Below the pieces are notes generated by a model. It saw only the letters and a list, made by a program, of their open reading frames with translations, ran no database searches and was not told the origin of the DNA. Position numbers and translations under genes: made by a program. Source: Verrucomicrobiales bacterium (GTDB lineage: Bacteria; Verrucomicrobiota; Verrucomicrobiia; Verrucomicrobiales; DEV007). Taken from it: a stretch of DNA of 32,882 bases. Location of the stretch: assembly GCA_024641425.1 (NCBI GenBank), contig JAHEDC010000008.1, forward strand, positions 1 through 32,882, read 5' to 3'. Below are positions 4,272-16,255 of the stretch, one piece after another. Each line of letters opens with the position of its first letter. Position 1 is the first letter of the stretch.

Positions 4272-4889
4272 TCACTCGGTCGCGGCCGGAGCTTCGGCCT
4301 TCGGCTTCTCCTCGGCGGGCTTCGGACGATTCAACACGTCGTCCCGAACGCTGCCCACCACCGTCATTACTTCTCCGATCAATTTCTCCGGCACCTTCAG
4401 TTCAACGAGCGTCGCCTGCAGATTCTCCGCGACCGCGTTGAAGTGCGATTCCTTTAGGTCGGGTAGATTCTTGTGCGCGGCGCGCATGTCCTTGCCCGTC
4501 CACGGCTCCGGCCCGCCCAAGGCAGTGGCAAGGAAGGCCTTCTGCTTGTTGTGCTGCTTCTTCATGTTCACGTCCTCGAAGAAATAATTGATCCGCTCGT
4601 CGGCGAGCACCTTTTTGTAAAAGATGTCAACCGCCGCATTGATCGCCGCCTTGCCGCCAAGCTGCTGGTAAAGGCTCGCCTCACGCGCAGTGTTGAATTT
4701 GTCCCGGCATTTCCCGCAACAGAACGCGTAGGATTTCTTCTCGTAGACGACCGTGACCGCCGTGTCCGCGTCCTCCTCGCAGACCGCGCACTTCGGGACC
4801 GGAGCGGCTTTCTTTTCCGCGGCCTTGTCTTCGGCGGATACGGGCAAAAGGAAACTGGCAAGGAGGAGGAGGGCGAAAAAGGTCTTCAT
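4272..4889 (-). CDS. Exported TRASH-like domain fused to a group I truncated hemoglobin
   Basis: A 205-residue protein with three parts. Residues 1-19 are a signal peptide (hydrophobic stretch ending PVSA). Residues 33-66 form a Cys-rich module (C34, C37, C57, C58, C61) resembling TRASH/YHS metal-binding domains. Residues 72-188 match group I truncated hemoglobins: YQQLGGKAAI, the FF pair near 103-104, AFLATALGG, and MRAAHKNL with H139 as the likely proximal heme ligand. The tail is rich in Pro, Ala and Glu. Truncated hemoglobins bind O2 or NO and are usually cytoplasmic, so the signal peptide and metal-binding module are unusual. It lies between the feo genes and tspO, which suggests an iron or heme related role; that is inference. 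Confidence 0.85.
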   Translation of the reverse strand: MKTFFALLLLASFLLPVSAEDKAAEKKAAPVPKCAVCEEDADTAVTVVYEKKSYAFCCGKCRDKFNTAREASLYQQLGGKAAINAAVDIFYKKVLADERINYFFEDVNMKKQHNKQKAFLATALGGPEPWTGKDMRAAHKNLPDLKESHFNAVAENLQATLVELKVPEKLIGEVMTVVGSVRDDVLNRPKPAEEKPKAEAPAATE

Positions 4890-15508: not shown

Positions 15509-16255
15509 ATGAAAATTCGAAACCTGCTAGTTGTGGGTGCGGTTTCCGGGGCGGTTTGGATGCCATTCGCATCTTCCGCGAAGGACGAACCCGCCCTTCC
15601 CTCCGCCAAGGTGAGCGACCTCACCGTGGATGGCTTCATCGGCGAGAACACCGTCGATGTCGAGTCGTTCAAGGGCAAGGTCGTCGCCGTCGAATACTGG
15701 GGACAGCATTGAGGCCCCTGCATGGCTTCCATGCCCCATCTGGTCCAGATGGATAAAAAGTATGCGAAAAAGGGTCTGCAACTCATCGGCGCGCACGTCC
15801 AGGCCGCGACCAACGAGGAATTGACGGACATCATCAAGAACTACAAGATCGGCTTTCCGATCGCCACCAAGGTCAATAGTCCGGTGCCTTCGAAGGGAAT
15901 TCCGCACATGATCGTCTTCGGGGCCGACGGGAACCTCGTCTTCGCCGGTCATCCGGCGAACCCGGATGCCGAGAAGGCGATCAAGGCGGCCCTGAAGAAG
16001 GTCGGAGATCCGGGCGGGGCTTCCGGGGACGCGGATTCCTCCTTGCTCGCGCCGCGACCCGAAACCCTGGTCGAACTGCGGACCTGGACCAATGCCGAAG
16101 GCAAGACAATGAAGGCCAAATTGCTCTCCGTCGAGAACGGTACCGGCAAGTTCGCCTTCGCCGACGGACGCACCTTCGACTACGCCCTCGACAAGCTCTC
16201 CGACGAAGACCAAAAGGTCGTCGCCGAGAAGTCCGCGTCGACCGAAAGCGAATAG
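15509..16255 (+). CDS. Secreted TlpA/thioredoxin-like selenoprotein candidate with SHD1-like C-terminus
   Basis: One reading frame of 249 codons, interrupted only by TGA at 15710-15712. Read as selenocysteine it gives 248 residues: a signal peptide (1-24), a thioredoxin fold (about 33-166) and an SHD1-like domain (about 190-241, RTWTNAEGKTMKAKLLSV to LSDEDQKVVAE). The TGA sits at residue 68 in EYWGQH-U-GPCMASMPHL, exactly replacing the first Cys of the TlpA-type CGPC active site; C71 is retained. P132 in GIPHM is the expected cis-Pro. The frame after the TGA is fully conserved in character, which argues against a decayed gene. The codon before it is CAT, and a hairpin follows. A Cys-to-stop mutation (TGC or TGT to TGA) or a sequencing error is the alternative. 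Its role would be thiol redox chemistry outside the cytoplasm. Confidence 0.78.
15710..15752 (+). promoter_or_regulatory. UGA codon and candidate bacterial SECIS hairpin
   Basis: CCATCT (15736-15741) and AGATGG (15747-15752) pair perfectly around the loop GGTCC (15742-15746). The loop begins 29 nt after the UGA and has G in its first two positions. As I recall, bacterial SECIS models ask for about 16-37 nt and a G among the first two loop bases, and E. coli fdhF has a similar GGUCU loop. Another perfect stem, GCATGG/CCATGC, lies at 15720-15734. Confidence 0.62.

Follow-up and report, generated by a model that had tools for sequence, protein, structure and literature searches.

A probable selenoprotein of the TlpA/ResA/DsbE fold with an SHD1-like domain and a conserved SECIS-like hairpin in Verrucomicrobiales

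The window, by which we mean the whole stretch of 32,882 nucleotides that was analysed, carries on its forward strand a frame at 15509-16255 that direct translation reads with one internal stop, a TGA at 15710-15712, lying within WGQH*GPC (asterisk, stop). An earlier sequence-only reading had given the same coordinates, a single frame and a lone internal TGA, and had placed this codon at the first position of a CxxC-type active site (H-U-G-P-C), proposing selenocysteine (Sec, U) in place of the first active-site Cys; on coordinates, frame and codon, translation agrees with it. That reading also expected gene callers to report a downstream fragment from 15722 to 16255, and an ORF with these limits is indeed entered separately in the ORF list. 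The features of the locus are as follows:

15509-16255, forward strand: proposed complete selenoprotein gene, 248 residues with Sec at residue 68, ending in the stop codon TAG at 16253-16255
15509-15580, forward strand: signal-peptide-like N terminus of about 24 residues, with a K/R n-region, a hydrophobic core and ...ASSA before K25 (predicted cleavage site)
15710-15712, forward strand: proposed Sec codon TGA, opening the U-G-P-C active site; TGC or TGT in the Cys forms
15719-15721, forward strand: codon (TGC) of the putative resolving Cys71, invariant in 20 aligned orthologues
15720-15734, forward strand: second hairpin, GCATGG-CTT-CCATGC, situated after the proposed Sec codon and before the putative SECIS, present in some relatives only
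15736-15752, forward strand: putative bacterial SECIS hairpin, CCAUCUG-GUC-CAGAUGG, with the core CAUCU-[GGUCC]-AGAUG at 15737-15751
15899-15904, forward strand: cis-Pro motif I131-P132, invariant in 20 aligned orthologues
16070-16246, forward strand: SHD1-like small beta-barrel domain (residues 188-246) with a sub-threshold PF03983 match, made of strands and a helix, pLDDT mostly 93-96

Elsewhere in the window, on the reverse strand at 4272-4889, lies a secreted protein with what looks, as judged by eye, like a YHS/CxxC metal-binding stretch fused to a truncated-haemoglobin-like domain.

The protein keeps its character on both sides of the TGA, as had been claimed, with a signal-peptide-like stretch, the cis-Pro and an SHD1-like end all present. 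The N-terminal stretch, MKIRNLLVVGAVSGAVWMPFASSA-K, is judged from sequence only, lacks a lipobox Cys and suggests that the protein would be exported. When the window protein was compared with Pfam with U at residue 68, Redoxin (PF08534) scored 40.7 bits against a cut-off of 26.6 and PF00578 matched with 36.7 bits, the matches to Redoxin, AhpC-TSA and Thioredoxin_8 lying over residues 37-142. In an AlphaFold2 model based on the family alignment (mean pLDDT 86), a thioredoxin-fold domain predicted with confidence is followed by a linker and then by a small beta domain that has a helix at its C terminus; the N terminus is of low confidence, as is the linker before the SHD1-like domain (residues 169-180), which is disordered. 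Foldseek returned ResA, DipZ and DsbE among its first PDB matches, with GPX structures among the weaker ones. The thioredoxin fold, CxxC-type site, cis-Pro and apparent export signal are those of ResA/TlpA/DsbE (CcmG) proteins in the broad sense, which are the closest structural matches and from which the present protein differs by the proposed Sec in place of the first Cys and by the SHD1-like C-terminal domain. No NCBIfam model passes its own cut-off on the window protein: the closest, the ResA model NF002854, scores 49.8 bits against 170, and NF041054, a ResA-like protein with a WAxxUGC motif, scores 24.3 bits against 300. The latter shares the ResA/TlpA-like fold and an active-site Sec, but its motif is UGC where here it is UGPC. 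The signature Glu of ResA, which we take to be E80, three residues after the second active-site Cys (the residue of the 'ResA E80Q' entries among the structure matches), is absent, the window protein having S74 and none of 20 aligned relatives having Glu there.

The C-terminal domain matches SHD1 (PF03983) over residues 189-241 with 17.2 bits, under the gathering cut-off of 23.7; among 20 orthologues, 13 have a match with E <= 0.1, the best relative reaching 6.3e-8. Secreted proteins with SHD1 domains occur in Planctomycetes and Verrucomicrobia, usually fused to other domains, and their C-terminal module is of the same R-x-W-T-N-x-x-G ... L-S-x-x-D-Q type as that found here; the literature searched held no link between SHD1-domain proteins and selenocysteine. 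The Cys forms L043-L046, from small genomes of family f2, have the active site WGINCPPC and end in a different, longer tail that is not SHD1-like.

The U-G-P-C site, the invariant second Cys and the cis-Pro suggest that the family is one of thiol:disulfide oxidoreductases, and we lean towards a reductase as its function. A selenoprotein could instead be a peroxidase of the peroxiredoxin or glutathione peroxidase kind, as the Redoxin, AhpC-TSA and GSHPx profiles that match the thioredoxin domain and the GPX structures among the weaker fold matches might suggest; however, the active site is U-G-P-C, with a resolving Cys that is invariant and that, like the cis-Pro, stands where thioredoxins have it, and the top fold matches are ResA, DipZ and DsbE, so that we consider a peroxidase unlikely. 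Clustering of gene neighbourhoods gave no conserved partner outside close relatives and nothing that points to a substrate. The two widespread neighbour clusters were rejected, as their members are shadow frames on the strand opposite the gene.

Among 57 relatives that were searched there are orthologues at 40-49% identity, and most of these contain exactly one TGA. When 289 genomes of the order were then searched with a profile and the active-site codon was extracted from each orthologue, 32 TGA forms emerged across three families, with Cys orthologues interspersed among them. The TGA occupies the first active-site position in every one of the 32 and is never replaced by TAA or TAG, and 31 have no further internal stop; a codon shared in this manner excludes chance, in keeping with the earlier argument that random nonsense mutation would rarely strike this one position. 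At the proposed Sec codon some 25 orthologues carry TGC or TGT instead, and the alignment column, for which the sequence-only reading had asked whether Cys or U occupies it, holds U or Cys. The downstream half, whose absence from relatives would have told against Sec, is present in the U forms, and in the closest U pairs it is under purifying selection, with dN/dS of 0.06-0.23 and synonymous change far exceeding non-synonymous change. The maximum-likelihood tree, built from 51 full-length members, needs at least seven changes between U and Cys, counted without direction, and at least five of these are forced by well supported branches. Two distant orthologues, L128 (G275; WDVKSESC) and L089 (G054; WGVNRGPC), lack the first active-site residue, which suggests a non-redox role in some lineages. 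Outside the order, the class and phylum samples gave few matches at the thresholds used, and the sole codon read, that of G630, is Cys. A search of genome contigs with degenerate patterns, which are too specific when identity is about 45%, found no relative. The use of tblastn against plasmids gave only ordinary TlpA relatives of about 27-37% identity among the matches listed. One TGA copy with an extra in-frame TAG (L068, G173:C123) is near-identical to the U-form gene of the f1 genome G027 and lies in an f2 bin that also carries its own Cys copy; it is probably bin contamination.

Downstream of the TGA, the window sequence can form a hairpin of 7 bp with the loop GUC (or the 5-nt loop GGUCC), 29-30 nt from the UGA and with an energy of -7.7 kcal/mol when folded alone. 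Its stem, loop, spacing and energy all lie within the published bacterial SECIS model, as given in the inventory PMC13188914, which describes a stem of 4-16 bp, a loop of 3-9 nt, a distance of 16-37 nt from the UGA and an MFE <= -7.5, with a G within the first two loop nucleotides and, in most cases, G or U next. In all 32 U forms a hairpin whose apical loop is of the GU type lies downstream. It comes in two registers, with the loop either 25 or 29-30 nt from the UGA; each register has a G within the first two nucleotides of its loop and a spacing inside the 16-37 nt range. In 28 of the U forms the arms CAUCU/AGAUG are identical, the loop is [GAC]GU[UCG][CGA] and it starts 29 nt after the UGA; four f3 genomes have UGCCNC-AGUUG-GYGGCA with the loop at 25 nt, one of them mismatched. 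The hairpin of G080 has a mismatch, and in the G230/G235 subgroup the isolated hairpin reaches -5.8 kcal/mol, weaker than the model limit of -7.5. Since the copy in the window, taken by itself, does not stand out in folding energy (z = -1.4), the argument has to come from position-specific conservation and from a synonymous-codon null based on each gene's own codon usage. Against this null the stem is kept in 31 of 32 U forms where 11.4 are expected, and occurs in 1 of 26 Cys forms where 2.0 are expected, figures that serve as a comparison and not as a probability because the hairpin positions were picked post hoc and the sequences are related. Most U forms, unlike the Cys forms, keep the encoded peptide HLVQM, which is what a constraint from the RNA would produce. 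Covariation is limited, as five of the seven pairs never vary; in G002 the closing pair is swapped from G-C to C-G, one compensatory pair that accompanies a Q-to-E change in the protein. An Rfam scan of the window gave no match. The second hairpin at 15720-15734 is not claimed to be functional, as only some relatives have it. Two Cys genes, L117 and L116 (G050 and G068), stand beside the U-form sister G044 and retain five of the six pairs of the second register, which is likely a fossil SECIS.

The sequence-only reading had called for a genome search for the Sec machinery. The source genome is a metagenome-assembled genome (MAG) of 6.53 Mb in 721 contigs, 90.6% complete and 5.5% contaminated, and it contains tRNA-Sec (selC), selB and selD, with selA as a fragment at a contig end. 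The tRNA-Sec, with the anticodon TCA, lies on contig C417 and scores 60.9 bits; as RF01852 is unspecific here, with one Leu and one Ser tRNA of the genome also passing its cut-off, ARAGORN, which agrees, and selB were used as well. A tRNA search of the window itself found none. On C715, selB scores 293.7 bits against a cut-off of 242, and on C230 selD scores 260.4 bits, above its cut-off; the selD frame (L135:2086-4338, reverse strand) is 750 residues long, with selD fused behind an FAD/NADH-dehydrogenase-like oxidoreductase domain. The selA fragment comprises the C-terminal 135 residues only and runs off the end of contig C79, so that it was cut by the assembly and not by mutation. Because selA is a fragment, the machinery genes are on contigs other than that of the window gene, and the bin is 5.5% contaminated, we state only as likely that the machinery belongs to this very organism. 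Among genomes at least 90% complete, selB is over its cut-off in 19 of 19 with the U form and in 6 of the 17 whose Cys form is full-length (P = 2e-5 by Fisher's test, uncorrected for shared ancestry of the genomes). Six U-form genomes in which selB was not found are all 53-85% complete.

A UGA aligned with a conserved redox Cys, a SECIS-like hairpin and the Sec machinery, three features by which bacterial selenoproteins are recognized, are found for this gene. The argument is a comparative one, in that the codon is conserved, the hairpin is restricted to the putative Sec-form genes and these are associated with the Sec machinery. The Cys/Sec exchange proposed earlier gains from the U/Cys column and the machinery, and receives independent support from the SECIS-like hairpin, which that reading had not noticed. 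We conclude that the apparent stop is almost certainly read as Sec in a working, not broken, gene, and on the same comparisons we would be very surprised if this family member were not a genuine selenoprotein.

Decoding of the UGA as some other amino acid, through reassignment or a suppressor tRNA, or plain readthrough would in principle also give the full-length protein, as would any near-cognate decoding. However, of 25 frames checked in the window, among them the downstream piece of this gene and some that are unverified, 10 end in TGA, which is therefore not reassigned; the residue exchanged for U in relatives is Cys; the genome contains tRNA-Sec and selB, the latter co-occurring with U forms; and the SECIS-like hairpin lies at the right distance. 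Together these points make such decoding very improbable. We give as little weight to a translational switch, in which the UGA would serve mainly for selenium-dependent regulation and the output would be a 67-residue product or one from an internal start: an in-frame ATG does stand at 15722, directly after Cys71, but the product from it would have neither the active site nor the signal peptide, and the whole frame is conserved. Less credible still is a pseudogene, broken by a nonsense mutation so that fragments or nothing would be made; a lone in-frame stop and a separately listed downstream fragment are compatible with it, but the same TGA in 32 genomes, the selection downstream of it and a conserved hairpin absent from the Cys copies are not. 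A sequencing or assembly error that made TGA from TGC or TGT, for which one might point to a MAG in 721 contigs, can be dismissed, as the assemblies of 31 other genomes have TGA at the same codon.

The best explanation overall, to which we assign a probability of about 95%, is that this is the gene of an exported thiol:disulfide oxidoreductase with the TlpA/ResA/DsbE fold and that its UGA codon 68 is translated as Sec. In the mechanism that we envisage, the in-frame hairpin about 30 nt downstream (CAUCU-GGUYC-AGAUG) would recruit SelB and Sec-tRNA(Sec), the UGA would be decoded as selenocysteine, and the product would leave the cytoplasm via the Sec export pathway. In the envelope it would act as a reductase on disulfides or oxidised thiols, with Sec68 as the attacking nucleophile and Cys71 resolving the Se-S bond, and it could be recycled by the DsbD-type membrane protein that is encoded in the same genome. 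The SHD1-like domain might dock a partner and so bring it to the active site, a role that we put forward tentatively.

Selenoproteins with a UxxC site in a redoxin-type fold are a known kind. The inventory PMC13188914 includes a 'Redoxin family protein' (PF08534, UxxC; representative HEU0032618.1), citing PMC2398784, an ocean survey, and PMC5029168, and the 'Prx-like 3, pfam08534 (E > 0.001), UxxC' of PMC2398784 may be the source of this entry. The present family shares with it the UxxC motif, the Redoxin-type thioredoxin fold and the PF08534 match; the entry as described gives no SHD1-like domain, Verrucomicrobia or SECIS, and it is by this description that we set the two apart, so that they may overlap. 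The same inventory describes a UGC-containing TlpA disulfide reductase family, likewise with a ResA/TlpA-like fold and an active-site Sec but with UGC in place of UGPC, and a Prx-like thiol:disulfide oxidoreductase (PF00578, UxxC/UxxU), which shares the UxxC kind and the PF00578 match and, compared by description, is listed with no SHD1-like domain. The reviews that we consulted present redoxin-type UxxC selenoproteins with no mention of Verrucomicrobia or SHD1, and name no Verrucomicrobia among selenoprotein users. The literature on selenoproteins in Verrucomicrobia yielded no description of the family, though an earlier one may exist, and the statement of the sequence-only reading that it knew of no well described exported thioredoxin-like selenoprotein with an SHD1-like domain accords with the literature, in which we found none.

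These are apparently unrecorded selenoproteins. It is probable that they form an undescribed family of Verrucomicrobiales, an exported UGPC reductase with an SHD1-like docking domain that has switched repeatedly between Sec and Cys, has its SECIS in two registers and has left a decaying remnant of it in two Cys genes. If so, the family would provide a natural series in which the loss or gain of a SECIS element and its Sec residue can be followed, and would make the movement and decay of SECIS elements testable. Because gene callers split these genes, annotations lack a redox protein that many bacteria of the order have kept. With a strong case for Sec from computation and many close Cys relatives, the family makes the cost and benefit of Sec versus Cys in an exported reductase directly testable.
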